This document shows positions 1,676 through 54,258 of a stretch of 64,000 bases of DNA, one piece after another (within the stretch, counting starts at the first letter, position 1; each line of letters begins with the position of its first letter). This stretch comes from Agelas oroides (Eukaryota > Porifera > Demospongiae > Agelasida > Agelasidae): NCBI GenBank assembly GCA_949130485.1, contig OX422190.1, positions 3,462,281 to 3,526,280 on the forward strand, given 5' to 3'. The position numbers and the translations under genes were made by a program. The notes under the pieces were generated by a model, which saw only the letters and a program-made list of their open reading frames with translations, did no database searches and was not told the DNA's origin.

Positions 1676-2545
1676 GGAGCAAAGCTACTTGAGGTTGTGT
1701 TGGAAGAAAATGCTGTGGTACTGTTATTACGCAACAATGTTAGCACATGTATTGCAAAAGTGGCACATTTTATGATACATAGCAGGTCACAATTTGTTCC
1801 ATAATCTGACATGTGTGTGGTATTGACCAACACGTGTCCTGTGCAGTGGGTGACTTCGCATAACATGCGCTTTTTATTTATGGAGATGTGGTGCATTGAT
1901 TGTACAACGTACGCACTAATCATATACAACAAGGTACAAGGCCGATCTTGTGAAGTATAGTTACTGTACAAGGCCGAGGGTACAAGACTGAGGGTAATGT
2001 CTTAGATACAGGCCTTGAGAGACTAGACCTTTGTTAGGGCTGTACGTATCTGAGGTATTCCCCGTGAGTGGCAGGTATACGATAACTAATATGTGGTGTG
2101 TTCTGAATGAATCTATTCTGAGCAACAAACCAGTGGCTATTTTAAGAGAGGTGCATGGTGTTGGAGGCTGGAGTAGCACAGGCCTCCTGTCTCCATTGGG
2201 ATTATGTGTTTACACGTACCTGTATACATCATTCTAATTGATGCACACTCCATGCAACCTTGTACATACTGTTATATGGCTACTAGTGAAGCATCCCAAG
2301 TGACTTAGCATTGTCTACAGTGAAGTCTGACAGTTTTGTTGTCTTCTTGCAAGTATTAGCACGAATGTACCTGTGATGTTTAGTTGCATGGTTTTCACCA
2401 TCTACATGTGATGACATCACAGCTACCGTACCTAGACTATGCTAGATGTCAGAGGCACTGTACTTCAGATACAGTATCTCTGACATAAAGAGATACAACC
2501 ACCTCTAGTTGGCAACAAATGTGGTACATTAACTATGATCCACCT

Positions 2546-2624
2546 CAAGAGTGCATGATGACATCATTTTATTGCAGAGGGAGGAGTAATAACAATTTTT
2601 AAATGATGTCATCATGCACTCTTG
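2546..2624. mobile_element. Short palindromic MITE (CAAGAG..CTCTTG family), copy 1
   Basis: The terminal repeat is CAAGAGTGCATGATGACATC followed by ATTTT, with its inverted copy ending CATCATGCACTCTTG. The centre is a short purine-rich spacer (GAGGGAGGAG). The same element is found at 52431-52514 with a 7-bp target duplication, and a half-element lies near 26003-26025. Confidence 0.75.
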
Positions 2625-3204
2625 TCCAAGTATGTAACATGCCACAAGTGCATTTTCAGTTTTCAAGTTATGTTTTTCAGGGAATTTACATGTTTGTCAC
2701 TATGATGACTATTTTATGCTTTATTACTGTGTGGCAGGTACGATAACTAATTTGTAATGTGTTCTGAATGAATCTATTCTGAGCAACAAACCAGTGGCTA
2801 TTTTAAGAGAGGTGGTGTTGGGTGTTGGAGTAGCACAGACCTCCTGTCGCCATTAGGATTATGATGTGTTTACATCTACCTGTATACATCATTCTAATTG
2901 ATGCACACTCCATGCGACATTCTACATACTGTTGTATGGCTACTAGTGAAGCATCCCAAGTGACTTAGCATTGTATACAGTGGAAGGTCGGACAGTTTTT
3001 GTTGTCTTCTTGCAAGTAAAGCTAATTAGCACTAATGTACCTGTGACATTTTGTTGCATGGTTTTCACCGTCTACATCTGATGACATCACAGCTACTGTA
3101 CCTAGACTATGCTAGATGTCAGAGGCACTGTATTCGGATACAGTGTCTGGGATACAACCACCTCTAGCTAACAACAAATGTGGTACATTAACTATGATCC
3201 GCCT

Positions 3205-3284
3205 CAAGGGTGCATGATGACATCATTTTATTGTGGAGGGAGGAGTAATAACAATTTTTAAAATGATGTCATCATGCACTCTTG
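3205..3284. mobile_element. Short palindromic MITE (CAAGAG..CTCTTG family), copy 2
   Basis: This copy sits inside the second copy of the 0.66-kb tandem duplication and has the same termini as the 2546 copy, with CAAGGG in place of CAAGAG at the left end. Confidence 0.7.
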
Positions 3285-4280
3285 TCCAACTATGTAACAT
3301 GCCACAAGTGCATTTTCAGTTTTCAAGTTACGTTTTTCAGGGAAGTTACATGTTTGTCACCATGATGACCATTTTATGCTTGTTACTGCTCAATTCTTGC
3401 CAAGTTGTTGAAAAGTGCATGTCACTAGAACAAAGTACTAGTACCTGAGCTACATGTGGAAGGTATACTAACAATGGCACTGTTTTGTTGGACCATGTAA
3501 TAATTGTGTACACATATATCACTGTTTAATCTGGTTGTAAGTGTTTCTGTCGGAATTACTTTTTTGACTTATGAATATTTTTAGTGCACTTGTTTTCACA
3601 AGCCTGTACATGCAAGGTATCTTCAGTCCCGTGAAATATTATGTTTTCTTTGTTGGGCCACTTTACAATGGTCTTCATCGCTTGTGCATTGCCTTAGTGT
3701 TTTTGATTGTCAACTGTGATGTATATACATTTTGTATGCAAGCATTTTGTATACAAACTGAGTTTTGACTGAATATTTCCCACTGTGTTGAAACAGCTTT
3801 GTAAATCTATGGACCATGTACAACATATTGTACTCTGACACAACAACCAACATCCATTCAAGTGTTCTTGTATCCACATGCTCACTTGATTTGGTATCAC
3901 CATTTTGCGCATGTACGTGCATGGTTATAAGTGAGTGTTTTCATAGGCCGATAGACTGGTACCACTGCTGCTATGAGCATGTTATGCCAGACTGTACAAT
4001 GTTTTGTCTCAACTTTTCTGTGCTAGCTTCAACTTACACAACCAAATGTTTCTACCCAGTGTGACTGTGTCATATCTGCATGCTCCTGATGTGTTGTTTC
4101 TTGTGGACTCTCTTGTAGAAACAATGAAGTGGAAACATTGTTGCACTACATGTAAACAGCAGTGTTGTTTATATGGTGTACAGTGTACATGATAGACATG
4201 TACAATTACATGTACATGCTGACATAGTGCATGACATGTGTGTGCAAATTACAGTTTCTTCCTCTTGTCTCCCCACCCAG

Positions 4281-4550
4281 CTGACCCCACTCTCACCACT
4301 GAGAATCTCATGGAGGTGGTGAGGGGTGTGGAGGGTCACTGGAAGGCTCTGAGTGACAAACTTGTAGTGCGATCTTCTGAGGAGCAGAAAATCCAACGCC
4401 TCTACCAGAGTGACCAACAGAAGATGGAGGCCCTCATAAACCACTATGTGAGTCACCACCACACCCGCTCTTGGATGTGGGTTGCCAGTGCACTAGGGAG
4501 GATGAAGCTACCCCAGCTGGCAGAGGTGGTCACCACCAAATACGTCAGAG
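4281..4550 (+). CDS. Death-domain exon (probable upstream exon of the Roc-COR-like gene)
   Basis: A 90-codon open stretch sits between a strong acceptor (TCTTGTCTCCCCACCCAG, ending 4280) and a donor (GAG|GTATGT at 4551). The peptide starts DPTLTTENLMEVV and includes VEGHWKALSDKL, SSEEQKIQRLYQ, and SWMWVASALGRMKLPQLAE. This is the six-helix Death-fold pattern, with the conserved tryptophan and the ALxRMxLPQLAE helix. Both ends are phase 1, the symmetric arrangement typical of shuffled domain exons. The next convincing coding exon on this strand (17325) needs an incoming phase of 1 and so fits directly. Joining them gives Death, Roc-COR-like, Death. I infer one gene; an independent gene cannot be excluded because the intervening 12.8 kb is unusually long and the 5' exons are not visible. 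Confidence 0.75.
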
Positions 4551-5008
4551 GTATGTGGCAGGGATTACCACTGGCAAGTGGTGGGTAACTTCACATATGT
4601 ATCTTCCTGAAGAGGTTCGACATGTTTTCTGTGCATGTGACTATGTGCTGGCTCTGCATATAATTACATTCCTACCTCAACAGCTTCATATGTAATCTTA
4701 CTCGTGGAAGCCCTTTTTCTTCGACGATGGGGAGTTTCAAAGGTAGTAGTGTCTCAAATACACTTCCAGTTGATCATGCTTCCAGTTTCAGTAGTGGCTT
4801 TATCAAGCAGCCCTACAGCCTAAGTGACCTGGGAGTAAAAATAAGGTTGATGGGATATTTGGAATCTGCTCAACGAGAGATTTTGATTTCTTTTGTGAAT
4901 ACCCACAAACACTACTGAGAAAACTTGAGTGCTTTTCAGTACAGAAATTCTGTGTACAAATTTGACTATGCACATGTGCCACATGATTGTGTCCAACCTT
5001 CTCTTAGT

Positions 5009-5094
5009 CTCGTCCCCAGACCAAATTTTTAGTGCGTACCCTACGGCCTTGTTGAAAAATAGGATCTGGACACTTCCACTAGGAAAACTTGGGC
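5009..5094 (+). repeat. Foldback-family repeat, inverted partner of 6259-6343
   Basis: AGTCTCGTCCCCAGACCAAA followed by TTTTTAG..GGCCTTGTTGAAAAATAG..TCTGGACACTTCCACT matches, in inverse orientation, the segment 6259-6343. The two copies lie 1.2 kb apart in opposite orientation. Confidence 0.7.
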
Positions 5095-6258
5095 CAGTTG
5101 ACATGACGCTGTCAGTAATTGTAGGTGTTAATTGCTGAGCACATTAGTGTGAGACTCTGAATGAGGGATCTATTCTCGGGATGTGCGTATGTATGTATGT
5201 ACATACGTGTTGGTCACGCTTAGGAAATGTCAATTTGCGGTCATGCTCAGAATGTCAATTTGCGCTCACCCTCAGAAACCCAGGTGTCACTAATACGTGC
5301 ATTACATGAGGCCGTCGATGGAGGATGGAGTTGGGGGGGGAGGGGGAGGGGGAGGGGGGGGGGGACAATGTTTCTTGGTGATGGAGGATGGTGAGGACAG
5401 TGCGGCTGGGCCTTCACAATGTACGTATTTGGCCGAGTCAAGCAAGTGCAGAAATGAGTGCTGAATGCAGCCGATGGCTGGTGACTCTGAGGGAAAGAAC
5501 TCAGGACAATTAAGGCATGGGATTTTATTTCACGTAAGCACAACATAAAGCTCACGTGACTAACAGAAGTGGGTGTAACTATAAAATGCAAGCAAGGTAT
5601 CGTAGTTTTCTACATTGTGCTCTGTGACTATATCGTTGTCCTATCCTCGTGAATGAGTTCCGCGGCTTGTAAGTTGGACATAGGACACAAAAGCGTGGTA
5701 TTTATATGCCACAAGTGACCTTTGTACTCTGTGAGTACCAACCGTGCACATGAGAACTGTTTGTGTCGAGGCCGAACAGAAGAACGCCAAACAAAACAAT
5801 TGGACACGGCTCGAAGGATTGCTTACCATCAAAATTTTCTGTAAGAAGGTAAGTTTGCTGTTGTTGGTGGTGCTTCTGTAGCATGTGTGGTGTCTCACCG
5901 CTATCCAATATTTATGATTTTTGGCATCATGCAGGAATAGGAGGTAATTGTTAGCCATGCCCAACAAATGCAGTTTCCAAGGTACTCCCACTAAACCAGC
6001 TGCTAACAATTTCTGACACCTGCTCCGCGCGCCCCACCCACATGAGCAATGCACAGACACAATGGCGTATGGCGTGGCATGAAGCATCATACGCATGCAT
6101 ACTCCTAGTTGCATTAATAACTGTTACTAGTAGCATAAGGTTTGGCGCACAGAAATCTGCAAGCTGGCTTTCTGTGATGATGTATAAATGTAATTTACTT
6201 CCCTCAGCAATCTGATTGGTGTGACAACATCCCGATATGTTTTATAATTAGTTTCCAG

Positions 6259-6343
6259 TTTCCCCAGTGAAGGTGTCCAGACCCTATTTTTTGACAAGGC
6301 TGCAGGACATGCGCAAAAATTTTGGTCTGGGGATGAGACTAAG
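6259..6343 (-). repeat. Foldback-family repeat, inverted partner of 5009-5094
   Basis: Read on the minus strand it starts AGTCTCATCCCCAGACCAAA and continues with the same GCCTTGTCAAAAAATAGGG and GTCTGGACACC blocks as the 5009 copy. Confidence 0.7.
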
Positions 6344-6952
6344 CTTTTCTGTGTATCTTCTGATCGTGTAGGTCTTTCAATTGGCACACTAGATCAGTGA
6401 TTACCATAATGTTGGGATATTAAGCACTGGTGGCTGTTAGGGGCCAAAATGGGTGCTTATGATTGTGGGATGCTTATATTTATAGGGCGCTAATAAATGC
6501 ATGAAACCATATGATAGGTACAGTAGTATATGAAAACATATTAGCTGTGATATGTTTTAGGCATACAGTTTCTCTCCATAATAATTTACCCATGATCATA
6601 GCATTCCAAGAACCAGAGGTACTGTCGGGAATCAACTGAGGGTGTGTCTATTTGCCATACTGGAATATGAAACAATATTGGAATGGAATGACAACAGTTA
6701 CAGCTAACTGGCGCTGACTAGGCTGAACTACCATCTACTATAGCTATGGCTCTTACCTCATTGCAGGCGCTTTATGAGCAAGTTGTTGCTGACGTACTGT
6801 CTCATCTGGTACGTACACTGCTAGTGATATTGTGGTTGGTTGGGTCTGGCTTGCTGGACTACTAAACATGGCTCTCTAACAACCACGTCTCTTGTCTGAA
6901 ATTTAACCACAGTATATGTGGAATATAGTCATATATTCAAAAATACTTCATA

Positions 6953-7368
6953 TACCGTAATCTCCCAAAAATGTGCCCATGGGCGATGAACTTAAGTGAC
7001 TCCTCAAAGAGGGGGTTGGGCGTAGCTACTTTTGAAAGTTGTGATATTTCTCTCAAAAATACGCCCACCTCAAACACAGTTCAGCCCTAGTTAACGTAGC
7101 CATGCAGGTGATTCTGCAATGCCTCTTTTGTCATGCGCTTGCTTATGCAGTAACAGCAAATGGTGTCTGCCTTCATTTGTTAGTCCCTCCTCTTGCACAG
7201 TCCTGGCTTGTTTGGTGCTTCTTGCTTATAATAACATAACCGCATGTACTGCAGCATAAATAGGTGGGTATACTTTCAACAGAGAAAAGCACCCATTGCA
7301 ACAACTTCATTCAAAAAGGAGGATGGGCTTATTTTCAAGGGTGGGCCTATTTTCAGGAGATTATAGTA
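6953..7368. mobile_element. TA-flanked MITE with ATAATCTCC-type termini
   Basis: The left end is TACCGTAATCTCCCAAAAAT and the right end, read inverted, is TACTATAATCTCCTGAAAAT. Both are followed by a GCCCA block. TA at both outer edges fits a Tc1/mariner/pogo-type target site, which is known biology of that superfamily. The interior has several more copies of AAAAATACGCCCAC-like words in both orientations and no transposase frame. Confidence 0.7.
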
Positions 7369-7931
7369 TTGCACAGTAACAGTGCAACTTGCAATGTTTT
7401 GGATCAATATGAACCTTTGTCAGGCTAGGCTAGGACTATCTGTACAACACAGGATAAAAACTAAAATGTTAACTAGCTGTTTAAATGGTGTGGCTGTATA
7501 GCGTCATGCATACTAGTATGTGTCTGTGTCGCCATGCTAGACACTCCTTTGTGGCATCCTATGCATGTTGTGTTTGTGGTATGTTAGCAGCCTACCACAT
7601 AGAAGAGTTAATGTTCTAATATCGCGGTGTGAGTCATTATGATCAAGTCTGTCCGCAATGTTTATACATTTCCTGCATTATATCGCACATCAAAATTTTG
7701 TTGTTGAAGTAATTTTGTGCTTCCTACCGACAGTGAAGTTGTAACAAATAAATGTTAATTACAGTCGCCAGTGAATATTCATTGGCCACTGTAAATAACA
7801 CATCCCAAGATACAAGACAACAGATATAATGAACAATGACGTAAGTAAATAATTGCCCGGCCAGAAGAAACATTGGATATCCAATCTGAATGTATATTAG
7901 TTAGTGGCATGCTGCACTTACCTCATGAACT

Positions 7932-8504
7932 ACAGTCAAACCTCCGAACAAAGGACACTTTGGGAATGGGTCATTTGTCCTTTATTCGGAGGTTGTCCCT
8001 ATCTCGGAGGTTCAATTGTATAATCCTCAAAATAATATATGGGTAAAATGCATGATTGTGAGCATATATTGAATGTTGAAAAACAGTGATTATGATTAGC
8101 CAAGTTGTAGCTGAAAATCTTGAAGTTTTACAAATCTTAAAAAACTTGTTGACAACAACATATTTAATATTGAAGTTTATCTGTCTACATGCGTTCATGT
8201 GTATGCGTGCATGTTTATGTATAATCGCTTGTGGTTAAATTCCTGATTGTCCTCAAAATGTGGTGGTGTGCTACAATTTTATAGGTGTGGTTTCCTGGGT
8301 GTCCGTTATTTAGAGGCGAGTTTGTATTGAAAAGTCACGTTGGGAGTTCAAATCTTGTCCGCTGTCCGGAATCAAGAAGCGTCTGCCTCTCGGAGGTTAT
8401 TTATGTATTAGTACTATAGTAATTTCAATCCGTAACACAGCGTTTGTCCGCTGTAGAGAGGTTGTCCGCTTCTCAGAGGGTCTGCTATAGGAGGTTCGAC
8501 TGTA
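7932..8504. mobile_element. TA-flanked pogo/Tigger-like MITE
   Basis: The left terminus TACAGTCAAACCTCCGAACA and right terminus GGAGGTTCGACTGTA are inverted repeats beginning CAGT and flanked by TA. The interior repeats words such as GTCCGCT and TCGGAGGTT. No transposase ORF is present, so it is non-autonomous. Confidence 0.7.
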
Positions 8505-11500
8505 ATACCTTGTTCACCAACAAACCTATACTGTGTACATGTATGCTCACAGCGCGCTACTTTGTAACAAAAGACCGGTTCACTTTTGCACTAAGATATG
8601 TCTTGGGAAAGTGTTGGAGTAAGCTCATGTCTGACTCCACCATTGAACCTGAGAGTGAAGCAGCATTACTAAAATGAACTGTACCACTTAACTCTGAGGT
8701 CACAGGGAGCATCTTGGAGTGCTGTTTAGACATGAGTTATGCCAAAAGATTGTTTGTTGTGCTCAACCACTGTATTTCACAAATTAGTCTGAAAAGCCCC
8801 CTAGGTTTTAGTTTGGATTAATTGCTACATACTGCATAATTTGCACAGTTAATATTGCATGAAACTTACTAAGAAGGGAGGGGGGGGGGGGGTTGTACGA
8901 ATAAGGGTGGGCTTTAAATAGCATGCTTATTAACGACTGTGTGGGACCTTATATCTAGCGATAGTTGGCTTGTCATGGTAACAGCACACTACTGTAAATG
9001 GCCAACTTGCATTATAGGATCACATGATTACTGCCCTGCCCCTCTGGAGGTCAGCTTCCTTCTCATTCCCATACTAAAGGTATGGGAACTGACTACCATG
9101 GTCGATAAAATAGCTTGCTGCTTGTGCACATGGTGTCCTCCAACTGTGGTTTTGAGGTTATTTATCGCAGATACTATAAGCTCCACTACAACCCAGTTAA
9201 TCCTACCGCCATAATTACAGAACAATGGCCAGACTGTTAGCCGACTTACTTCTCCTTCGACTGCAAGTAAAGATGATGTTCCCAGGGCTTCACAGCAAGG
9301 TAGAACACTCACAGTTCCTAAGTTGGAAACGCTATCACGAAACTGTGACCACCACCCACAGCCCCACCCTCAAATTTTAATGAATCACACACATGCTGTA
9401 CACATGCCTGCACAACTACGTGAGTAATAATGCGCACAACAGGTGGTCCACAGAAGCTGAAACATCTGATCATAGCTCAAGTCTGTGGTCTTTGTCAATC
9501 CAGTTCATGGATTTAAATGGCTGTAGCTGCAGCAGTAATACTTGTTGAATAAATCATAAGGTTTGCTGATTATTACCCCTTGCATGCGCCGGCGGGGTTA
9601 AGCAATCGGTGTGTTTGTGTGTGTGTGTCGGTCATGCAGTGCGCCAGTTGCCCAAATTTTGGCCAGTTTGCTATGAAAAGTGCGATTTAATTACTTTGAA
9701 ACAAGAAATAAGCCATGATATCAGTATTTTATTGGCATTTAGATACTTGGTAGATGCGAAATTGGCTCAGTTCTCCAATTTGGCTGGATTTTGGCTGGAG
9801 TTATACAACACAGGCCTACTCAAAGGTCAAAGGTTGTGCCCAGAGATGGCATGACATTCTAATCATCCTGTGTTTAATAGACAGTCAGTCATTCCTTGTT
9901 CAAAGTCATTTGAGTTATCTATGAAGCCTATACGTAGCAGGAAGTCTTCACTGAAGGTAAGAGAAATGGAAGAAGCACAGAAAAGAATGTGGATAAAAGA
10001 GAAGTCAAGCGTTACAGAGAATGGCCACAACTCAATCCGGGAAACATCAATTGGAGTCTCTTGAAGAGAAGCAGGGGAGACAACAAAGAGAAGCCCTGCC
10101 ACAGACAGTTAAATGCCAGACAGAGACATTGGAAGTAAATAAGGAGAGAGATGAAGAAAAAATGTTGCCCAGACAGCCATGAATGATGGAACCAAAGCAG
10201 TAATTAGTGCCATGGTGTAAATACTGATATCAGAGTATTGGTACCATCATCAGATACAGTGTAGTCTTGAAGTGCAAATGTAGTCTGTTTTTACATGCTG
10301 GCCTGCTACTGCCAGCAAGTGCTGTGATCTCAACATGCACACATCATGTCAACCAATTAAGTACACATAAAGACTGATACGAACAAATTAAGCTAAAATG
10401 TTTGTTCAGTAACCAACTCCACCAGTCCAGCCCAGCCATCCAGTCAACGATCCAATCCAGTGATTAAAAACAACCGGAGAGTCTGACATTGACATCAGAC
10501 TCAATGTGCTCTTCCATTTGGAAATTTCTGATGCCGAAATTGCTTTCCATTTATGAGGAAAACTGCTCTTAAGATAGCAAGTGAGAACTAAATCCATCCC
10601 TCATCCACTGGGGTCAACACTCAAGAGCATACTGCATTTGCACAGACAGTGGAAATATGTCTGTTATCAACAATACCAAAAATTAATTATCCATTTTGAA
10701 TAATTCATCTCAATTTTTGATGATACATTTCAGCATTCAATTTTTTGATGATGTACTTAAAAATTCAATATTGAATTGCTATAATCATCCTACTAGCTTA
10801 TTTAGATAGATGACTTCTGTTGAAATTATTTTTGTTGTTCCCAGTGTAGTGGCTGTGTAATGTCATCCCCATGAGCTATTGCTTCCATAGTATCAAACAC
10901 CTTTTCCTTTCACATTGATTGGTGACTACAACCATCTGAGAGTGGATGCTAAATTAAAATAGTGTCATCCAAAACTGCACAATGGGTTTAAGCAACTGCT
11001 GCTGTGGTCATAGCTTTTGGGAATGTCTGAAAAATCATAGTAACACCTGTTGATTGTGAACCTCCAACAAAATGTCACTTTCCTTCCCATATCTATACTT
11101 GGAGGACTTCATGGACCAGGTGTGAACACGGATGCCTGGCACTCTTTACCAGGAGACATGGAGTGTGTTCTGCATGCATGCATGCATGTGGTTTTGAAGT
11201 GATGCAGCCACACACAAACCACCTTGGCATCCATTTGAGAATTAGTTTTATAGGTTTTGTGACCACACTCATTATGTATGACAGTGGGTACCAGCTGCAC
11301 CAGTACACAAGTTAATGAACAGACAAAATGCTGGAGTAATAAAAGATCAAATGACACATCATATACAAGAAGACTTAGTTTCATTTAAAATGATTCATTG
11401 GACTATACAAAACAGGGGATAAGCTAAAATTCATTTACATTCATTGACAATTTCATGCTGTATTGTATAATACAATATTGGAGCCACAACCACTGGGCAT

Positions 11501-11505
11501 AACTT

Positions 11506-11605
11506 TGCAGTTAAGGAGCAACAGGCATTTGGCATAACTTGACAGTCATGGAGCAGCAGGCATTAGGCATAACCAAGTGGTTACGTATGGAGCATCTAGC
11601 ATTAA
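11506..11605 (+). repeat. Left fragment of the interrupted 36-bp minisatellite
   Basis: Degenerate units of the type GGAGCAGCAGGCATTAGGCATAACCAAGTGGTTACG lie immediately left of the long-inverted-repeat element and match the array on its right side. Confidence 0.75.
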
Positions 11606-11610
11606 GCATA

Positions 11611-14037
11611 GGGGTCATTCCATGTCAAATCAACACAAAAATTACCTGACCCTCTCAGATTTGGACGAAACTTGGTTCTTACATAGTGTCTGTTGAGACA
11701 TTCACCCGTAGTCAGTTTCAGCGTTATATGTTGTATGGCTTCAGAGTTAGAACCAGCCAAAAAGTCAATTTTTCACCAATTTTTGGCTTACCCCTTGGTA
11801 CTTAATCAACCATAACTTTAAGCATGATTAACTTTATGACCTACAATTTGCACCATTTGTAGCTCATAAAATTTCCTTTCATTTGGTATAATTATCAAGT
11901 ATATCCCATAAAGTTTGGGTCAAAGGTCATCACTAGTGTACTTTGACCTTTGCTCTCTCAAAAACGGATGTTTTGATTTGAATCAATTTTTTACTAAATG
12001 TTCTTGGGGGCCTTCTCTTTAAGTGCAGTAAAATTGGTTTTGGGACTGCCATGGGATTTGGAGATACTCGACAGAATGTAATGGCAGTTAGGGGAGATGT
12101 GCAAGTAATCGACCGTGTACTTACCCGATAGGGGTGCATTTTGATCAGTATGACCTTCATAAATGTGACATGACAAAGTAGACATGATTATGTGACCAAT
12201 GGATGATGAACAAGTGGTAGTTGCCATGGTTACAAGGTAATTTATTGTAGTTAATCTCTAGCAAACAACTGAATGCTGTTCAACATGCAGAAGTGACAGT
12301 AAATTTTCATGTTACAGTTTACTTAGGTTCTTCCCACAATGACTACTTTACCCTAGGGCAGGAAAATTTTATGGTATTAAAATTAGCTCCTAGGTACACA
12401 GCTGCAATATTCTAAAATTAAGTTGGGTAGATCAATTTAGGAGTGCCTCAGTGTGTGATTATATCATAAACCTACAAAATGTTGTATCAAGACTGCAGTA
12501 GGAAGGTCCATACTAGTGATAGAAAGCTATGTCATGGGTAAGGCACTTACCAAATTGCATGGACACTGAGTTCATCTGAGGGCAGAATGGGCAAGATGGC
12601 AATTGCATGGCAGGTGCATGCACTAACTGTTAGCCTTGTACCCAGGGCATACTAACCTGTTCAATGTGAACAAGATTTAAGATTTCTAGAAAAATGGTTG
12701 CTTGCACACTATTTTTTGCTCAAGCTCTTTATTTAGAGGTGGGACTTCATTGCATATACTGAGTGCTCTTATGAGGTAAGAGCACATGTTCCCAAGCCTT
12801 CACCACCTTCTTTGATTGCATGCAGTATGCAAATAGAACACAAATGGCCTGGAAAATCTAGTCAGATAAATGACACATCAGGCACACAGAAGATAGCTAG
12901 ACACATGGGGGAGGTGGTGCCTGATGAAGGATCTCAAGGTCCTTTCTTCTAGCATCCATCCAGGGTTGGATGCGAGAGCATTCACAACGTAGGTAGTATC
13001 AATACTGCTTTGTTAAAGATTGATATATACAAAAAATGTTATTATAGATGGGTACCACCCTAAGTGTGTGTATACCCTCTGCCCACCTAATGTCACAACA
13101 TACGTATGACCACACTTCTACAGTGGTCGAGGGGTATAATGGGTTTCACGCGCGCTTTTCGAAAAAGCTGCCACCGTACACTTCATGTTTTGCATAGTGT
13201 GTAAGAACCTCGAAACTGAAGGCAGCAAAGGCCTAGGAACCACTACCTATGCTCATGGAGTTGTGATAACAAATACTAAAGGAATTCACTCGGTGTGGTC
13301 ACACATCCACCATTGTAGTGTGTAAATATGCTGCAGGAATATGACTGGGTACTAGGTTTACCTCCTACTTGTAGCATTGAGCTGCATACAAGAGGGAAAT
13401 TGCAACAAATTACCTTGTAACCATGGCAACTACCACTTGGTCATGCATTGGCCACATAATCATGTCTACTTTGTCATGTCACATTTATGAAGGTCATACT
13501 GATCAAAATGCACCCCTATCGGGTAAGTATAGGGTTGATTACTTGCACATCTCCCCTAACTGCCAGTACATTCTGTCGAGTATCTCCAAATCCCATGGCA
13601 GTCCCAAAACCAATTTTACTGCACTTAAAGAGAAGGCCCCCAAGAACATTTAGTAAAAAATTGATTCAAATCAAAACATCCGTTTTTGAGAGAGCAAAGG
13701 TCAAAGTACACTAGTGATGACCTTTGACCCAAACTTTATGGGATATATTTGATAATTATACCAAATGAAAGGAAATTTTATGAGCTACAAATGGTGCAAA
13801 TTGTAGGTCATAAAGTTAATCATGCTTAAAGTTATGGTTGATTAAGTACCAAGAGGTAAGCCAAAATTTGGCGAAAAATTGACTTTTTGGCTGGTTCTAA
13901 CTCTGAAACCATACAACATATAACGCTGAAACTGACTACGGGTGAATGTCTCAACAGACACTATGTAAGAACCAAGTTTCGTCCAAATCTGAGAGGGTCA
14001 GGTAATTTTTGTGTTGATTTGACATGGAATGACCCAT
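11611..14037. mobile_element. 2.4-kb foldback element with about 630-bp terminal inverted repeats
   Basis: The left arm 11611-12240 (GGGTCATTCCATGTCAAATC..) is repeated inverted and nearly identical at 13410-14037 (..GATTTGACATGGAATGACCC). Mirror-image pseudo-ORFs in both arms are a by-product of this symmetry. The flanks read ATAG on both sides (11607-11610 and 14038-14041 region), a possible 4-bp target duplication. The 1.17-kb centre (12241-13409) contains no recognisable transposase. The element is inserted within a minisatellite whose remnants are on both sides. Confidence 0.85.
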
Positions 14038-14041
14038 AGCC

Positions 14042-14640
14042 AAGCGTTATGGAGCAGCAAGCGTTTGGGCATAACCAAGTAGTTACGGAGCAGCAAGCGT
14101 TTGGGCATAACCAAGTAGTTACGGAGCAGCAAGCGTTTGGGCATAACCAAGTAGTTACGGAGCAGCAAGCGTTTGGGCATAACCAAGTAGTTACGGAGCA
14201 GCAAGCGTTTGGGCATAACCAAGTAGTTACGGAGCAGCAAGCGTTTGGGCATAACCAAGTAGTTACGGAGCAGCAAGCGTTTGGGCATAACCAAGCAGTT
14301 ACGGAGCAGCAAGCGTTTGGGTATAACCAAGTAGTTACGGAGCAGCAAGCGTTTGGGTATAACCAAGTAGTTACGGAGCAGTAAGTGTTGGGCTTAACCA
14401 AGAGGTTATGGAGCAGTAAGCATTGGGCATAACCTAGTGTTATGGAGCAGCAAGCGTTGGGCTTAACCAAGTTGTTATGGAGCAGTAAGCATTGGGCATA
14501 ACCTAGTGTTATGGAGCAGCAAGCGCTGGGCTTAACCAAGTTGTTATGGAGCATCAAGCGTTGGGCTTAACCAAGCGGTTATGGAGCCGTAATTGTTGGG
14601 TGGTTATGGAGCAGCAAGCATTGGGTACTTATCCATGCAA
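14042..14640 (+). repeat. 36-bp minisatellite array
   Basis: About nine near-identical 36-bp units (TTACGGAGCAGCAAGCGTTT + GGGCATAACCAAGTAG) occupy about 14049-14384. Diverged and shortened units (GCATTGGGCATAACC, GCGTTGGGCTTAACC) follow to about 14640. The unit length is a multiple of three, so frames stay open (EQQAFGHNQVVT repeated), but there is no start, splice context or codon signal suggesting a real protein. Confidence 0.9.
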
Positions 14641-14943
14641 CAAATGAATACTATGTTTTATCATCTGCAAATGAATGACTACAGTGATCCTTACATTAAG
14701 TGGTTGCCAAGTTTTATCAGCCAAGACATGCAGCATTCAATTCTAGTCAAATTATTTAGATTCCAAGTTTGGATGATCCTCGCCGACCATTTGTGGATGG
14801 CACAATAGGGTGGCTTCTGCTATTACCCAGTTCACTGGTGGCAGCATAAAGTACTTCAGTACTTATCCTGCAGAGTTAAATACCAAGCCTGAGAGTTGAA
14901 CAGTGTCTGTGCAATCTATCCTCTGCTCCACTGCCAAAGCTCC

Positions 14944-15009
14944 AGTGGCTCAGTTGCTAGGAGGATCTGACCGGAGTTCAGAAGACCCAGGTTGAATCCT
15001 GGCTGGATC
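14944..15009 (+). repeat. tRNA-like (SINE head or pseudo-tRNA) sequence
   Basis: It has a box-A-like TGGCTCAGTTGCTAGGAGGA and, 45 nt on, a box-B-like GGTTGAATCCT, the internal RNA polymerase III promoter pattern of tRNA genes. The stem pairing is incomplete, so I read it as a tRNA-derived SINE fragment and not a working tRNA. Confidence 0.45.
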
Positions 15010-17324
15010 TCAATATCTTTGTACGCCTAATTCTATCCATTTTGGGATGATCTACTTTAATCTAGCTTTTCCGACAGTACTTCTTTGGAACACATTTTAA
15101 ACTTGGATTTCTTTGGAGTTAAAAAGGACATTGAGATGTGAATAGGTGTTTTTCAGAGTTGTTGCATTTTCTTAGCCATTCATTTTGGCATCCATTTTGG
15201 ATGATTTAGATTCCAATGTTGACAGTAATGATTGTACAACTTAGCATCCGTTTCTTTTAGTGGTTTTTCAGCTGGCTAGATTGACCTGTATAAATGGAAA
15301 GGAGGCTCTGTGTTAACAATTTGAAAGAACATTTCAACTGAATACTTTAGTTATCATCATGGTGAAAGTGAAGAAAGTGTGAAACACCATTATTTTCAGC
15401 CATGCACTACTAAGAATACAGGTCATTGGAGGCCAAAGAATTGCTCCTATCTGCCTCCTCATCACTGCTATCCAGCAACCAGGAACTTCCAGTCCTACAT
15501 CTTAGTTGAAGCACTCCTACGCAGGTGTCATCTGGATGTGCAGCGCCTTCTTCACAAGTAGCTGGAATTTAGCCATTTTGAATGATTGTTTTTAAATAGT
15601 ACATTGCCTGGTCCACTTTTTGTCATTCGTTTGTAATCAGAACATACCAACCAGTTTCCTTCCAGACGGTGAGCTAGAAATTGGGCTTCTTATATCAATA
15701 TACAGCAGAACCCCAGTCCCGACCAGAGCAAGAGGGACTATCATCACAAGGATGGCATAGCACTGTCATGAAGGGAAGCTGTTCTCAAGCCTGTTAATCA
15801 TAGGAAAGTATTCTGTGCACAGAGGATCACAATAGTCATGTACAGAAACAGGGAAAATGAAAGATGACTGGAAACCAAGTTACACTATAAAACAGTGAGG
15901 TGAGGATTTTCAGTGTGGCAGGCAATGCCATGAGGTGGCCACACAAAAGCAATGAGCTACATCTAACTGCGTGGTTGTATAATTTGCTCAGAGCTCGTTA
16001 TTTCACATGATTTTCTCTTCTCCTTCCTGCAATACAGCTTGCTGACACTTCTGAATGCCAAATCAACTAACCAAGTTTAGTTTTTAGGACCACTCCTTCA
16101 GCTTTGTCTGAGGCCGAGACTAGCTCTGTTGCTCCTTTGCAGGTCGATTACCCACATAGTTGCATAGGTAAACAAAGTTTATGGTTATTGTGACTACACT
16201 TTCGAAATCTTTTGCCCAGCAGTTGGTCCAAGACAAAGTAAGGTTAACCTCTTAAACAACAGAAGAGTATATTGTTCCACGCTCTTCATTTTCTGTTGAT
16301 ATACTGGTATGCTTACCCTGCATCAGGCCACCACACAACACAGAAAGCAAACGTGTGCATAGATAACTGAAACTCCAACGTTCTCCAGTATAATGCAAGT
16401 ATATAGTGCTTATTCCAAGAAGTATACTGTGCCACGTATGTGTAGGTATGTGGTGTGCACGTTCTCATTCATACTAACAGTAGATGTCCACACATAATAA
16501 GGGTACTCACCTGATCCAAATCACATACTAGTGAAAAACATCTTGTGGGTATGGATATCATTTCTGTCTCAAATGTAACTTTATAACCGTAAATTCATCA
16601 CAACAACCATTGAAAGAGTTGATAGTTCCCTTCAGCAATAAATTTCATTTTTAGCCTTATGCCCATTGTTGTACATGCTGTCAATTATCAGTGAGTAGAA
16701 TTACACCAAACCTAAGTTGCAAGCTATATGTACTTAGTATCATTTAACGGTCACACCAAACAAATATTAAGGCACATGAAAGCATGCTAGATTAGATCAT
16801 GATAGTAATCACCTGTTCAAAATAGCAAAAGTAAAATTTCATCATCTTCCATGAAAGACTCATGTTCACTGTATCTTCATGGAGGTATGGACTCCACTGC
16901 TTGAAGTAAACCTATAGTGGTTAGCCAATAAGCCTAAAGTGATATAAGACTGACATTTGAAATACCACCATAAAGTTGTTGCCCTTCCTTGTCTAAAAAG
17001 ATGACAATCAGTCATCATTTTTTCCATACAACAATCATAATGCAACACTGACTTAGTCACCGTGCAGTCACCCTCCCATGCTAAACACTCTATATAAGTG
17101 GATGCAACATGTCAAGTTCCACATGGTTTTACATGTAATAGCAGCTGGTGGTACACTTGACAATACAGTTTACGGTACTACACTCTGAACTTGTTCAAGA
17201 AGCTACTTTTACATTTTGTGTTAATTTTGTTCATTGCACTGCCTGAGGGAAACATTTCTCACTGACAGTAGTGAATAATAAGAAGTAGAAATATTTATAG
17301 TATACATCGTTTTTACCACCCCAG

Positions 17325-20300
17325 CACGATCACAACAGGTGTTTGACAATGCAATGAAACATGGGCATGTGGAGTGTCGAGACATCAAGGCCCTAATTTT
17401 TGGGTCAGCCGGAACTGGCAAGACCCATACAATTGCGCTAATAATGGAGGAAGAGCCACCTACAGTGCGTTGTAGCACACCGTGTGCTAAAAGGCCAGTT
17501 CGAGCCGTGTCGAGGGCTAGAATTGAAAGGAAGGGTAAAAAGTGGGTTCGAGTAGACCATGCCGATCTGTCTCAGAAGATTGTCGATGAATCTACAATGC
17601 TTGCATCCGACCTTGTGCCAGACACAAGTTCTGCAGCTTCTTCCAGTACCATGACAACAGCAGGTGGGTCCGAGGCAGATGCTGGCTCTCCCACTAAAGC
17701 ACACTCATCTCCCTCCAAGGAAGGTGCTAGTGGGTCTTCCCCGTCACATGAGAAGTTTTCCTCCACACCCTCATTCGATACAGAGGAACTGCTCCGACGC
17801 ATTGAAAGATCACCTTACGGCAAATACGCCAGAAATGCCTTTGAACAAGATCGAATCAGCCTCATCGATACTGGGGGTCAGCCTCAGTTTCACGAAGTGC
17901 TCCCAATCTTTATGCGATATACTTCAGCCTCCATGTTTGTTATGAAGCTTAGTGACCGTATGAGTGACCACCCAGTTATTGAGTATTACGACGACAATGG
18001 TCACCTAGTAGGCAAGTCTTACTACTCAGCCTACACCAATCAGCAAATCCTGATGCAGTACATGAGAGTGATGCAGTCGCAGGCATCCCAAGGTCTCTGT
18101 CCCATGTCTGTCTTCATAGGCACACATAAGGATCTCGAGCACCAATGTCCAGAGAAAAGAAAAGAGAAAAATCTGAAGCTTCTTGAATTGCTTTTACCAG
18201 CTGTGCATAGCAACACCTTATTTTACGGTGAAGAAACAGAGGAACCAATATTTCCTCTGAATGTCAAAAACCCTGGGCCTGAAGAGCAGCATATTGCTGA
18301 AGAGCTGCGAAGGTTGATTGTTGAGAAGTCCTCTGTAAAACCAAGGCCTATCCCGCTTCGTTGGCATGCTCTAGAGCTCGCTCTTCAAAAGCTGATGCTG
18401 AAGCTAAAACGTGGTGTGCTTAGCAAAGCTGAGTGTTTTGAGGTAGCTCGCAGATACCATTTTGACAACGAATCATTCGAAGAGGCTTTGCGATACCTAC
18501 ACCAGCTCAACATCCTCTTCTACTATGAGGATGTGCTTCCAGATGTCATCTTCTGTGATCCTCAAGTCCTGTTGGACAAAATCACTGAATTAGTAGAAGA
18601 TAGCCACAGGTTGAAAACAGATCCTAGCAAAGGTACACCTACCGAAGGTAGCATTTGGAAGTTTCGAGACCAAGGAATCGTAACCCTAGAGTTTCTCAAC
18701 AAGCCATGCTTCACAAACCATTATGTCCAAGGTCTGTTCGGTCCAGTTGAATTGCTGAATCTTTTCAAGAAGCTCCTCATAGTGTCCCAGATCAATGAGG
18801 AAGAGTATCTCATGCCTTGCCTTTTGCCTGTAGCAGATGAGCCTGGTCTTCTCTCTCCTAGTGGTAGTGTTCCTTCTTTGCTCTTCTACTTTCCTGACAG
18901 TCCATTGTTAGGAGTTTTTTGTGGTCTTATAGCTTATCTTCTTTCTGAAGGCAAGTGGAAGTTGCTCACCAAAGCTGGTAGTCAATCTCCAGGACCAGCA
19001 AAAGTGGATCGAAATACTGTCCATTTTGAGGTTCCTGGTGGTCTTCCTGGCAAAGTCATTCTGACAGACTCTTTTTCAACTTATTTTCAAGTGGACATTC
19101 TGGTTCCCCCCAATGCTTCCAAAGTATGTTCCAAAGTATGTCCAGCAATTCAAGAGACCATCATGGCAGGGATACGCCAGTCATCCCAAAATTTACATTA
19201 CAACAACTCCGTTCCCAAACTATCGTTCATATGCAACAAACATACCGATAAAACTTCTCCCCACGCTACTGTTGTCAACAGGAGCTGCGGACTGATGAAA
19301 TGTACGGTGAATTCTGAGGTCTGCAGCACAGTGACAGATGACCACCAGGTCTGGTTTGGAGCTGCATGTGGTAAGTATATAATGGGTTAGTATTATGATG
19401 AGATGTGCAGTGATACATTTTATGACTAGCTAAGTGTTTTCAGTTTTATGACAGATTGTGAATCCTAAAGTGGGGTCCATTAGTAAATTAGTATCCCACT
19501 ACAGTTGATGCATACTTGGTCTGAGTTTCTGATGTAACTTCATTCCCAGTCCCTCCCCGCCTCCAGTTTTTGAACGCTTGCAGCATGCATATTTGCAGAA
19601 TGCCTACTGAGAATGGGGCTATTCTGATGTAGTACCAGTAGTACACTCTCACATTGACTTGTCACTGCCAAGTCTAGAAAACATCCTCTTGCTTTGCTCA
19701 AAGTAGAAACCCTAGTGACTTAGACCTTAAAGTAACTACTAACAAGTTATAGCATAACTGAACATAGTCATATAAAACATGGTTTTTAGTGTACTGAGAC
19801 GATGACCAGTCAACTATTTGCAGATTATTTATACTTATTAAGTTTCCTGCTCAAACTTCTCTGGCTTTAGCTGAAAGTACTACTGATGTACATCTCAAAG
19901 GGCAAGGAGCAAAGCCTTGCATGTGCACTGTCTTTCAATAGCCTATACCAAAGTGCTTCAAATGTACAGCTAGCAATGATAAGCTGATTAGGCCACACTT
20001 GACACACTAGGTAGCTGGAGCCCTGTTTCTGCTGCTTTACAGCAATGGTAGTTATGGCTGGAACAGTCTGAGCAGGAGACCCTGGAGAAATACTTGTGCA
20101 GTAAGTGTATGGACAAATGTGTACCAGTCATTCTTCCAGTACAGCTACAACCATCTCAGAACCACTTCTTTTGCTTGTTCATGTATATGCTACTAATTGT
20201 GGCAAGTACCACACTTGCTTGTCAATACCTATTACGATATTTTTTTCAGACACATCTTCCTCTGGTGCAGCCAGCCAGCCACCCTCCACAGCAAGTAGTC

Positions 20301-20739
20301 CTAGTGGAGCCATCACCATTGGTATGTATGATGTGTTAATACCATATACTGTGGTGTTGTTTACATGTATATTATCAGGTTATGTCTTTCTGAGCTTTCA
20401 TTCTTGAACTTCATTTTTTATTTAGACATGAAGCCCAGAATAGCACAGCTGATGAACCTAAGAAATGCTAGGGGAGAGAAGATAGAGATTATCAAGACCA
20501 TTGCACCAGACTGGATGGAGGTTGGGTTTCTGATGGACCTTGACCCAATAGGAACAAAGATTGCGAACATTGAAGCAGAACATGCACACAAGCGAAATGG
20601 TCCAGTCATCTGCTGCCGGGCGATGTTTGCACTTTGGCTAGACCGACCAGATGCCACCTGGGGAAGTCTCATCAAACTGCTAATTGATTCAGAACAAAAA
20701 CGTCTTGCTGAACAGGTTAAAGATGCTCTTAGTTCATGA
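17325..20739 (+). CDS. Roc-COR-like GTPase with C-terminal Death domain
   Basis: Exons are 17325-19370, 20250-20321 and 20426-20739 (stop TGA), with donors GTAAGT and GTATGT and phase 1 at each junction. The first exon follows the acceptor ACCACCCCAG. If 4281-4550 is joined, the visible protein is about 900 residues. Numbering from the GTG codon at 17339: P-loop GSAGTGKT at 22-29; switch-I-like block EPPTVRCSTPCAKRPVRAV at 39-57; a Ser-rich insert of about 80 residues; G3 DTGGQPQFHE at 177; G4-like THKD at 262; then a helical and winged-helix COR-like region (RWHALELALQKLML, VLSKAECFEVARRYHF, FCDPQVLLDKITELVED). A 24-residue Ser/Pro linker exon precedes the Death domain (MKPRIAQLMNLRNARGEKIE.. 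TWGSLIKLLIDSEQKRLAEQ). Roc-COR proteins are GTP-binding scaffolds and Death domains recruit signalling partners, so an apoptosis or immune adaptor role is inferred. The N-terminal exons are not identified. Confidence 0.85.
20250..20321 (+). CDS. 24-codon Ser/Pro linker exon of the Roc-COR/Death gene
   Basis: It is a 72-bp exon between acceptor TTTTTTTCAG and donor G|GTATGT. The product is TSSSGAASQPPSTASSPSGA followed by ITI, a flexible low-complexity spacer between the COR-like region and the Death domain. It is phase 1 at both ends, so it could be skipped without a frameshift. Confidence 0.75.
20426..20739 (+). CDS. Terminal Death-domain exon
   Basis: The acceptor TTTTTTATTTAG ends at 20425; 104 codons follow to TGA at 20737-20739. 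The conserved Death-domain pattern is visible: IAPDWMEVGFLMDLD (helix 2/3), AMFALWLDRPDATWGSLIKL (helices 4-5 with Trp) and a final LAEQVKDAL helix. The protein ends just after the domain, as in many adaptor proteins. Confidence 0.85.
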
Positions 20740-22283
20740 ACTATTTACTGTTCCTTTTGCTGCTTGCTTCATCTAACTGTTATTTATTGTAATTTGTTTT
20801 GAGATTTTGTTGCTTTAACTGCTGTTTAGTGGTTTTCTAATTAAAAAAACAACAAATCATATATTATGGTTGTACAGGTGGAAATGTGAAATTGGAAACG
20901 TGAAATTGGATGTGATGGCCACTCTTAAAATTGGCCTCCTATACACTCCTGCACATTGATCTGTTGTTATTGACGATAGCTAAACCGATATCAAGTGTGC
21001 AGAAGCTGAGTGCACCCATAGGGCTGAGTTCCACACAGGTTTTCATTCTAGCTAGTACTCAGGACTCATCTGGAAGTGTGACACGCAGTGATAATTAAGC
21101 CCCTGGAACATTGGTTGTTAGAGTGAGACCATTATGCCTCACGAGACTTGCAACCAGCTGTGTGGAGAGCAACAGTAAGCAGTAAGTGCACCATGCAGTA
21201 AATGTACTAATAACTTTTGGCTTTTCAGAGGCAGTGGAAGACTGGGGAGGGGGGTGAATACTTATAGGCACATTGTTACAATGATATCCCTGATCATATT
21301 TCCTTATCTTATAATTAGCTAGTGATTTTTGTTCTGTTACCTTACCAATGCCAATGTTCATTTGTATGAGAGTTAGTTAAGACGATTCCCAAACTTTGAC
21401 CTGAGCTACATTGCTTATATATATTTAGGCACAAAGTATAGAAGTTTTGGACAGTTACCCGAAAATGGAGAATTATGGCAGGAACCTTGATTATGAGATG
21501 GGTGTGCTACAAGATGCTCTGTACAGGAAGGTGGCTCTGAACAATGAAGTTAAATGTCATGTAGAATAGCTTACTCATAGTAGTTCTGAGTTAATTGTTG
21601 ATGAACATACCAACAAATTTTTGTCATGCAAAAGAATTGCTATGGCTATGTATGATATACAGTAATGCAGGTGATATTCATTTGACCAAAGCATCTTTTA
21701 AAGGAACCATATCCAAGAACTTAAGAACTTCTTGCCTCACAATGGAAATAGATTTAAGAAATTGAAAGGGTGGGCAGTCACTAGAAATCAAACCATGCAA
21801 TGAGCTGCCAGTGGTCTGCATGCCACTGAGCTATACTAAATAGACAACCACCAGCACTCGTAATCCAGAGAACTTGGCAGCTCAAGCCAGGCGTGACTAC
21901 TGGCCTAGCTTTCTACTTTCTATTTTTGCCTCATAATCCTACAACTTTAGTTCAGTTGAATGATTAAAACAGTACAGCTAAGTACTTAAAGCTCAAGGTA
22001 ATTACAGCTGCATGTCAGTTCAGAAAGGTCATGTCTTGAACTTTGAACTGCCAGAAAATAGCTGACCACACTTACCCCCAGGAAAGTAATTAACAATCCT
22101 AGATGATTATTATCCATATACTAAATGTCATCTGTTAGATATAGCAACAAACAGCCTGCATATATACAGTATACAAGTGCATATCATTAGTACACAAAGC
22201 TTCATTGACATAATACATGTGGTATAGACATTGTCAAAGATATTTAGGGAAATCTTGTGCTGACTAACACATTCAGAACTTCT
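20740..22283. other. Intergenic stretch between convergent genes
   Basis: It separates the Roc-COR/Death gene (+) from the GPCR gene (-); the two genes are convergent. A 46-codon open stretch at 21429-21569 after a TATATTTAG acceptor-like site is noted but unproven. A tRNA-like element lies at 21783-21836. Otherwise nothing is recognised. Confidence 0.6.
21783..21836 (-). repeat. tRNA-like (SINE-type) sequence, minus strand
   Basis: Read on the minus strand: TAGTATAGCTCAGTGGCATG (box A TAGCTCAGTGG) and, 25 nt later, GGTTTGATTTC (degenerate box B). The spacing suits a tRNA-derived pol III promoter, but no full cloverleaf forms. Confidence 0.4.
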
Positions 22284-29500: not shown

Positions 29501-32500
29501 GCAGAAATTTGTGGTGGCTTTTCTCAAAAACACACAAACGCTCCACACATGTTGTTCAGTATATCATATGACTACTAGCTTCCACTCTCCATACTATAAG
29601 CAAAAACAAAACTGAGTTACAAATCACACCAAGACCAGACTCAACTACAAGTGCCCAAACCTCTCACTATTCCGTAAAGTGGACAGGTTATTTGGTCCCA
29701 CTAGTACCTGGACTGTATAAAATTCAGTGGACACTGGCATGCTTCTCACGCATGATTGTCCGCCACTGCTGATTGATTACTGGACATTACAATAGCGCTT
29801 CCCCCTGGTGTTCGAATTAGAAGGGTTCCAATGTAGTCTACACAGTTAATCCTGGGATGGGCATGACCAGTGTTGCTGTCATGCACTTGCACAAAATAGA
29901 GTTGCTTCAGTCATTTTCAGGTATGCATGCCCATAGAGACAAATTAATGTGACAGTGTATGGTTCATAAATTGCTTGTTTGAGCGACTTTTCTGACTGAA
30001 AGGCAGGTGAACATATAACCAATTGCTTCGCACATGCATGCGTTCAAAAGTAGAGAACAACTCAGTCATATCCAGAGTGAGGATTAGGTGCAGAATATCT
30101 CCAACACACTATCTAATTTGAATCTCCAGTATGCTACTACAAGTCCTCACTATGTTACTGTGTCAACCTGGTAAATCACCCACGTCCATGTATATCCCAA
30201 AGACCATCCAGGTGTGTGAGTATGCACTTAGAGGAAAATTGTTTTACATTCCTGGAAAGTCAGGAGGGAGGGTCTTGTCACACATACGAACTTCCCTGTA
30301 TGTGCCGAGTCAGGAAATTTTGTGGTTTAGCATGCATTCAAAACGAACCCTGAGCAGCTGTAGCTAAAGCAGCCACCACTATTCTGCTCATTTACACTGC
30401 ATGCATGTCTGCAAGTGATGTCAGACGTAGTATGTCTAACCACACTGCATGTCAGAGACGGTGCTCTGATGTACAAAAGCCTTAGCTTAGTAACATAGCA
30501 ATGTGGCTTGAAGCTACACTTTGATCTGCCCACACAACGTACCACAAGAAATTATATGGGTACACAGTTCACCCAGTCGTGTGTGTGCAAGTATGTACGT
30601 AGACCTACCACAATAGTGGTCCAGCTGACATAGAACAGCAGTACAACAGAGAAGAGCATTCTAACAAACTGTGCCTCCACCCCCAGCTGGAACTTCTCCG
30701 AGATCACAGGAGCAGCACGCTTTATAGACTTGCCCAGATCACTGATCCTGAGGGTGTGGGAGGGCGGAGGAAAATTTAGTTTTCACTTCTCATTGGCATA
30801 GTTGCTTTTGGCTGCACTTACATATAAACCACAGGTTAGTTTGGGGACACTGTGTCTAGTTATCAGTTTGTCACTGACTGTGCCCCATTTGGTATGCCAC
30901 CAGTGCTGTTATCAACTAAAGTTCCATTGTGCATGTAAGCATGTCAACCTGAATACGCCAGATAGGCCAGTCTAAAAATACTTGCATTGGCTAGTTTGAG
31001 ATTTTGTCCACAAGATTATGTGAAGGTAGGTGGGTTGCCATGGGTACCCTTATGAGATAAATCTCGACTTGCTTTTTTCTGTAACATGTAATGCACAGCT
31101 TGCACCTCAAACGGAATTAGACACTCTGAAAGTAGATATTAACCCTTTACACCCGATGCGCATGCGCACAATAAACACGTGATTACGAGAGAAGCAAGAT
31201 AAAAAATGGCGATTTTGTACTATGTTGATTCATTGCGTTATATCTTGTGAACTAGCAGATTTCAACAATTGGTAGTTAGGCTTAGTTAGGTTGAAAACAA
31301 ACCTGCTTTACTCGGGAAGTAGTCATACGAGTTGGCAGTGAAGTCCGAATAAGATACAGCGGTGGAAGCGCGGGTATTCGCTACATATTGGAAAATGACT
31401 GGAAATCCGTGGCAAAACTTCCAGCGAAGGTACGTTTTCACTGTTGTTTAGATGATTAGCTAGAACAAATTCGGTAGGAGCAGCAGCGCGTGGGAAACCA
31501 GCTGTTCTGTGGCAATACTAAGTACAACACGATCGAACGGTAAACTTCGAACGCGATTTCCGGGGAAAGTCCCTATAGGACCGCCCAGCTAATTATGCTT
31601 GATTCGACTTCCTGCGGCACATACTAACTATATACTACGTAGCCGCGGGGTATAGAGCGCTAACCGCTCGATAGTGGCCATGACGACTATAGTCGTCATT
31701 CGGAAATAACGTACCTATATTCATGACGACTATAGTCGTCATTCGGGTATAAAGGGTTAATGCTCAGTTTGGACATTTGTTATGAAGATGATAATGTAGC
31801 TCATACAATAACAAACTGGGCACTTTAATTTCCCCACCACAAGTACATGCACTTAGCCTAACATTTCTTCCCCTTCACACCACAATATCAATACACAGAT
31901 ACTAAGCTCACCTAGAGGTCAGATTTGGTTTGGTGAAGGTCACTTCATGATCCCTCTCTCTTGCACGAGAAGCACGGTTGTAGTTCCCTTGCACCTTCAT
32001 CTGTTTGCGACGATAGTACACCCGGATCAGCTTTGCAATCACAAGCACAAAGCATGCAAGCACGACAACATATTGCACGCCAGCATACACGAGGATCACA
32101 ATGGCGTAGCTCGTAGCAAAGTCAAACAGGCAGTAACCATTGTGATGTAAAATTGTAGTGCTACTGTCGACTGCTGGGACGATGGCCAGTATCAGTGCAG
32201 CAACCCAACAGCACAGTAGGATCATGGTGACACGAAAAGGGGTGGCATATTTGCGATAGAAAAATGGTCTATTCACTGCAAAGTATCGCTCAAGAGAGAT
32301 CAGTGTCACAATCAATGCAGATGCATAGCGTGTAAATTGTGCAACTGTGGCATAAAAGTTGCACAGGACCGAGCCTTCGTCATACTGTATCCCTGTGAAG
32401 TATGAAACAGCAGACATAGCGACGGGGATGAAGGTAGCCATCAAGTCCGTCAGTGCTACTCCGATCACTAGCACATCAGGGACCTTGTGCACTTTAAATC

Positions 32501-37893: not shown

Positions 37894-52826
<14,933 letters not shown>

Positions 52827-53101: not shown

Positions 53102-53176
53102 GCTGTCGTAGCTCAGTGATAGAGCACTGGTGGCTCAAACCAGGAGCCAGGCTGGGTTCAATTCCCAGCAACTGCC
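53102..53176 (+). repeat. Degenerate tRNA or tRNA-derived SINE
   Basis: A nearly complete cloverleaf: box A TAGCTCAGTGATAGAGCA, D stem GCTC/GAGC, anticodon stem CTGGT/ACCAG with a 7-nt loop GGCTCAA, T arm CTGGG-TTCAATT-CCCAG. The acceptor stem has two mismatches and position 33 is G where tRNAs have U, so I call it a pseudo-tRNA or SINE head and not a functional tRNA gene. Confidence 0.55.
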
Positions 53177-54190: not shown

Positions 54191-54258
54191 AGCAACCAAA
54201 GCTGTAGTGGAGGCTAACCAGTGGAGGCTGACGTAAACCTGGTGTAGATCTCACAACC

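Follow-up and report, generated by a model that had tools for sequence, protein, structure and literature searches.

In a window of 64,000 nucleotides from the sponge Agelas oroides (assembly GCA_949130485.1, contig OX422190.1, positions 3,462,281 to 3,526,280 of the forward strand; coordinates below count from the first letter of this stretch), we examined four plus-strand exons that together appear to encode a Roc-COR GTPase carrying Death domains. A first Death domain (Death 1) lies in an exon of 270 bases at 4281..4550, which is entered and left in phase 1 and is bordered by AG before 4281 and GTATGT after 4550. A complete Roc-COR module occupies the 2046-base exon at 17325..19370 (AG before, GTAAGT after). 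It is followed by a Ser/Pro/Thr-rich linker exon at 20250..20321, phase 1 at both ends, which was identified from its sequence and splice borders (AG before, GTATGT after) with no homologue search made, and by the last exon at 20426..20739, which opens behind an AG acceptor and encodes a second Death domain (Death 2) and the stop codon (TGA, 20737-20739). An ATTAAA at 20840..20845 resembles a poly(A) signal by pattern alone. Spliced in silico, the four exons give a single open frame of about 900 codons in which each joint is of phase 1. The exon borders and all-phase-1 joints reported in an initial annotation of this DNA were read directly, and the phase compatibility it claimed for the upstream Death exon is borne out by the open joined frame; the gap it put at 12.8 kb measures 12,774 bases (4551..17324), compared with 879 and 104 bases for introns 2 and 3.

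From these features we propose the gene order Death 1, Roc-COR, short flexible linker and Death 2, with no C-terminal kinase and no leucine-rich repeats (LRRs) seen, a reading to which we assign a probability of about two in three. Within the window, neither hmmsearch with both the Death-1 and GTPase profiles nor tblastn with all three proteins found another copy of either domain above noise.

The Roc-COR exon is the core of the model. Its whole length is predicted to fold as Roc-COR, with a G domain followed directly by COR (18353..19366; model residues 344-681) on a single chain. Pfam, which was run on the proteins of three of the four exons, matched COR-A with an E-value of 7.9e-7 (29.5 bits against a cut-off of 35.3) and Roc with 0.008 (16.8 bits against a cut-off of 27); at E<=0.01, COR-A matched 34 and Roc 29 of 47 sequences drawn from a set of 121 GTPases that comprises the window's own protein and 120 listed homologues. 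Across that set the G motifs are almost invariant: the P-loop GSAGTGKT (G1, 17402..17425) fits Gx4GK[ST] in 121/121, the switch II motif DTGGQ (G3, 17867..17881) is present in 120/121, and the G4-like THKD (18122..18133) belongs to a GTHxD found in 121/121. The DTGGQ and THKD motifs and the Roc-COR module of the initial annotation are therefore retained, the profile matches being below cut-off; its "COR-like region" was an understatement, since the exon encodes COR in full. Pfam listed no NACHT domain at E<=1 for this exon, which folds as Roc-COR instead, and no kinase was found C-terminal to COR, where the linker exon, the Death exon and the stop codon follow. We class the protein as Roco, in the broad sense that also takes in the Parkinson's protein LRRK2.

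A Death fold is present in both flanking exons, that of Death 2 being assigned from its Pfam match. The last exon scores above the curated Pfam Death cut-off of 22.6 bits (25.7 bits, E 1.3e-5), whereas the Death-1 exon falls below it (20.0 bits, E 7.5e-4). When 49 of the 93 sequences available for the exon-1 alignment were scanned, however, 33 matched Pfam Death at E<=0.01, the best at 1.3e-9. The predicted structure of Death 1 consists of six helices with a mean predicted local distance difference test score (pLDDT) of 91.5, and its best PDB neighbours are death domains, with template modelling (TM) scores of 0.76 to 1wxp and 0.78 to that of RIPK1. Most of the leading neighbours are the death domains of p84, FADD, DR3, ankyrin, RIPK1 and TRADD (TM normalized to query length about 0.55-0.78), with Apaf-1 CARDs ranking lower; no Foldseek E-value was below 0.001. 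Both Death domains claimed by the initial annotation are upheld by these results. The two bear only a remote likeness to each other (collinear profile alignment, probability 29%), and the Death-2 profile, compared with PDB by sequence, returned no death domain and a single unrelated match (E 0.34).

Death 1 has the hallmarks of an internal exon. Among its 92 homologues (Death 2 has 127), the downstream border is identical in 92/92. The upstream border is likewise identical in all 60 that extend to it; for the remaining 32 the predicted start is an internal Met. The residue after the exon end is a donor-like G in 92/92, followed by M in 80/92; since all 92 read into this donor-like G, the exon is internal and needs a downstream phase-1 acceptor. 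Because it also starts in phase 1, at least one further exon is expected upstream, perhaps beyond the edge of the window. None was identified in the 4.28 kb preceding 4281, where first-exon candidates scored no better than chance and the frame at 1424-1801, the sole upstream frame submitted to Pfam, gave no match.

The GTPase belongs to a family that is very large and apparently undescribed. A database search, with scoring limited to the top 7,996 candidates, recovered at least 622 GTPase homologues; the best 120 of these were listed, along with the best 120 of 127 Death-2 homologues and all 92 Death-1 homologues. The listed GTPases fall into a close tier of nine at 83-88% identity and another 111 at 58-64%, and they are clustered, with at least 25 of their 77 contigs (told apart by size) holding two or more, up to five. 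For the contig size of 731,612 bases, seven Death-1-type matches and two close GTPases are listed, possibly because alternative Death exons, or copies of the gene, form arrays there. No relatives were found in viral_contigs or genome_contigs, and a partial survey of the open-access literature, by title and start of abstract, returned no sponge family joining Roc-COR and Death. As pseudogenes are common in large clustered gene families, and this family is both, the window's gene could be a degenerate or pseudogenised copy; we consider this very unlikely, given about 900 open codons, intact splice sites, a full set of G motifs, and nine relatives at 83-88% identity that are predicted with long open frames.

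The family also bears on whether Death 1 belongs to the Roc-COR gene. From sequence we infer a splice from 4550 to 17325, across a presumed plus-strand intron of 12,774 bases that holds inverted and tandem repeats. To look for linkage we used contigs of at least 40 kb in other assemblies, judging two matches to share a contig solely by equal size in bases; all counts are lower bounds, with the GTPase side confined to the 120 listed homologues. Of 19 large Death-1 contigs, at least 10 are in common with the 60 large GTPase contigs, as are at least 11 of 26 for Death 2. Death-1-type exons occur on 5 of the 6 large contigs of the 83-88% tier (including contigs of 59,754, 97,401 and 158,371 bases), compared with 5 of 54 other GTPase contigs (Fisher p 2.6e-4), so the Death-1 exon type travels with the close GTPase subfamily. 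The sharing of contigs strengthens the earlier interpretation that the two belong together, orientation and spacing forming no part of the evidence. Furthermore, in 35 of 89 aligned GTPase relatives the predicted frame extends at least five residues upstream, and the 25 of these that were listed diverge at or within 1-2 residues of the window's acceptor; since similarity is lost at about this point, the phases fit.

Several observations weigh against the proposed gene. Its exon model is a prediction from DNA, and the function that we propose for it is argued by analogy with other systems. Both the Roc and the COR-A scores lie under the Pfam curated cut-offs, and the Roc-COR model has a mean pLDDT of 65.9, with values below 50 in several stretches including residues 27-32 (in the P-loop), almost the whole of 48-151, and 183-194 (in and after switch II). 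Same-contig calls depend on equal size only, contigs from a single genome cannot be counted as independent, and below 40 kb no contig size is in common for either Death type. None of the closest tier's 6 large GTPase contigs carries a Death-2-type exon, compared with 11 of the other 54, a difference that is not significant (Fisher p 0.58), and none of the three closest listed Death-2 homologues is on a contig longer than 2.4 kb, too short for linkage. The linkage data are therefore silent on Death 2: the two-Death bracket of the initial annotation stands as regards the Death domains in both flanking exons of the window, but it may not be constant among near relatives. Finally, codon 11 of the Roc-COR exon (17354-17356) is an ATG in frame that is invariant in 90/90 aligned sequences, which leaves room for a shorter protein starting downstream of Death 1.

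This last point bears on an unlikely alternative, in which 4281-4550 belongs to one Death-domain gene and a separate Roc-COR-Death gene starts between 4550 and 17354. The 12.8 kb gap far exceeds the other introns, and the database-predicted frames of the eight closest relatives displayed begin at the invariant ATG, but the gene caller behind these starts was not built for introns, and in the upstream-extended relatives the residues preceding the ATG are conserved up to the shared acceptor. Every Death-1 homologue is an isolated exon, and splice partners could therefore differ; on some contigs, such as that of 731,612 bases (7 versus 2), Death-1-type matches outnumber close GTPases. A separation of the two is nevertheless at odds with the way in which the Death-1 exon type and the close GTPase tier share contigs. 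Nor did we find a further coding exon after 4550 that would complete a separate gene. The scan behind this result, which combined codon score and splice sites and in which gap frames were not submitted to Pfam, is a weak one: the GTPase exon scored first and the Death-1 exon second (14.8), with no other candidate above it, but two unsupported candidates, 6268-6367 in the gap (11.1) and 1573-1738 upstream (10.2), outranked the genuine linker exon (9.2). The borders of 6268-6367 alone would break the phase-1 frame.

A second alternative concerns the G domain, whose switch-I block EPPTVRCSTPCAKRPVRAV (17453..17509) had been described as unlike vertebrate LRRK or DAPK proteins. The difference is to be expected, as Roco switch I regions vary widely in length and composition (relevant part of PMC6337361), and it serves poorly as a distinction, because the block is family-wide: STPC is present in 121/121 sequences, and S51, T52, P53, C54, P58 and R60 are invariant in 90/90 aligned ones. 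We accordingly rejected the idea that the block is peculiar to the window's gene. In relatives it weakly resembles the GMP-binding segment of guanylate kinases, raising the possibility of a functional hybrid in which a guanylate-kinase-like P-loop and GMP-binding segment precede Roc-like switch II and G4; such a protein would sense GMP or another nucleotide rather than switch on GTP alone. At E<=0.01, Pfam Guanylate_kin matched 20 of 47 family members, the best at 4.1e-4; of 13 N-terminal pieces, 11 matched it at E<=0.1, the best at 1.6e-4. Guanylate-kinase-fold chains made up four of the top five PDB matches of such pieces (E 0.023-0.47), and hhalign against 21 bacterial guanylate kinases gave a probability of 94.6%, with a score reached in only 1 of 150 shuffles that kept the P-loop and permuted the other columns. 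However, the P-loop itself supplies 32.2 of the 48.1 hhalign score; with it removed, the probability drops to 2.2% and is matched by 2 of 150 shuffles. Generic P-loop families do nearly as well (AAA_22 in 13/13 pieces, best 7.5e-4), the hypothesis was chosen post hoc, once the matches were known, and the structure model is unreliable in this region. The odds are lowered further by the window's own protein, for which Guanylate_kin gave no match to the whole (E<=1) or to a piece (E<=0.1). In the 7 of 10 scanned relatives that match the profile, they do so below its cut-off and only at positions of about 6-69 of 182, so that a partial match, and not a whole guanylate-kinase enzyme domain, was found in an exon that as a whole is Roc-COR. 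Searches of NCBIfam (five proteins) and PADLOC (three proteins) gave nothing above noise save a weak guanylate-kinase match for one protein (P0014, E 0.037). We regard a hybrid as extremely unlikely and the apparent resemblance as a minor lead.

The presumed intron contains several repeats. An inverted repeat with 598-base arms that are 98% complementary (11609-12206 and 13441-14038, 1.2 kb apart) looks like a mobile element or a recent inverted duplication; a 36-base tandem array with ten register positions lies at 13974-14464 and gives a repetitive open frame on both strands. Rfam matched tRNAs at 14939-15010, also in the intron, and at 53102-53176; ARAGORN calls only the second, as tRNA-Glu, and the first may be a tRNA-derived repeat. 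Upstream of Death 1, a tandem duplication of about 660 bases spans 2078-3381, its matched blocks 93-96% identical. Elsewhere the window holds a minus-strand frame for a Rhodopsin-family G-protein-coupled receptor (31908-32756; Pfam 7tm_1 E 9.6e-24) and a minus-strand CEP104 zinc-finger frame (39965-40645; Pfam E 9.3e-25 in two stretches) broken by a low-complexity run of Pro, Ser and Leu, perhaps a read-through intron. Three closely alike thiopurine S-methyltransferase-like frames, one on the plus and two on the minus strand, lie at 54232-55020, 57916-58674 and 61204-61995; Pfam TPMT matched the first (E 2.7e-39) and the second (E 2.8e-41), and the third was assigned by eye from its similar translation.

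Among known systems, the Chlorobium tepidum Roco protein (PDB 6hlu, 3dpu, 3dpt) shares the Roc-COR fold over model residues 4-681 at a sequence identity of about 12%, but it has N-terminal LRRs, and the titles of the matched chains name no Death domains. In LRRK1 and LRRK2 a kinase follows COR, whereas here the frame ends with the Death exon and a stop codon. Another comparison is DAPK1, a protein that carries ankyrin repeats. DAPK1 is likewise metazoan, lacks LRRs and combines Roc-COR with a C-terminal Death domain (relevant part of PMC6337361), but a kinase precedes its Roc-COR where the window has a Death exon. Outside DAPK, Roc-COR is joined to immune adaptor domains in TLR/MyD88-like proteins of Aplysia (PMC9334734, in part); these carry TIR, which Pfam did not find in the proteins of three of the four exons here. 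Sponges themselves have large families linking Death domains to switch or adaptor modules, namely NLRs with Death domains (NLRD) and the Death/TRADD-N expansions of Amphimedon (PMC12909245, PMC8195603), but the NLRs use NACHT and TRADD-N is a different fold, whereas the gene described here uses Roc-COR. Sponge Roc-COR is not named in the relevant parts of either source.

By analogy with these systems, the likeliest mode of action is nucleotide-gated clustering of the two Death domains, each step past the sequence being one that we infer. The Roc domain would bind GTP or GDP and COR would dimerise the protein. In other Roco proteins dimers form through COR, and the nucleotide state has been proposed to tune the monomer/dimer balance (PMC6337361, in part). 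A shift in this balance would expose or cluster the Death domains, which would then nucleate Death-domain partners such as adaptors, caspases or kinases, and the outcome would be an apoptotic or defence response, with a presumptive role in immunity.

More speculatively, and in our view doubtfully, sponges may possess, in addition to NLRs, another large set of nucleotide-switch receptors inside their cells, with Roc-COR replacing NACHT, symmetric phase-1 Death exons shuffled onto a one-exon Roc-COR core, and possibly a guanylate-kinase-like switch I serving as a family-specific nucleotide or partner sensor. If confirmed, the gene proposed here would add a class of Roco proteins that lack the LRRK or DAPK kinase and whose Roc-COR directly gates Death domains, and would offer a simple natural system in which to ask what the core of LRRK2 and DAPK1 does alone. 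It would also mean that a Death-domain platform based on a GTPase was expanded in early animals alongside the NLRs.

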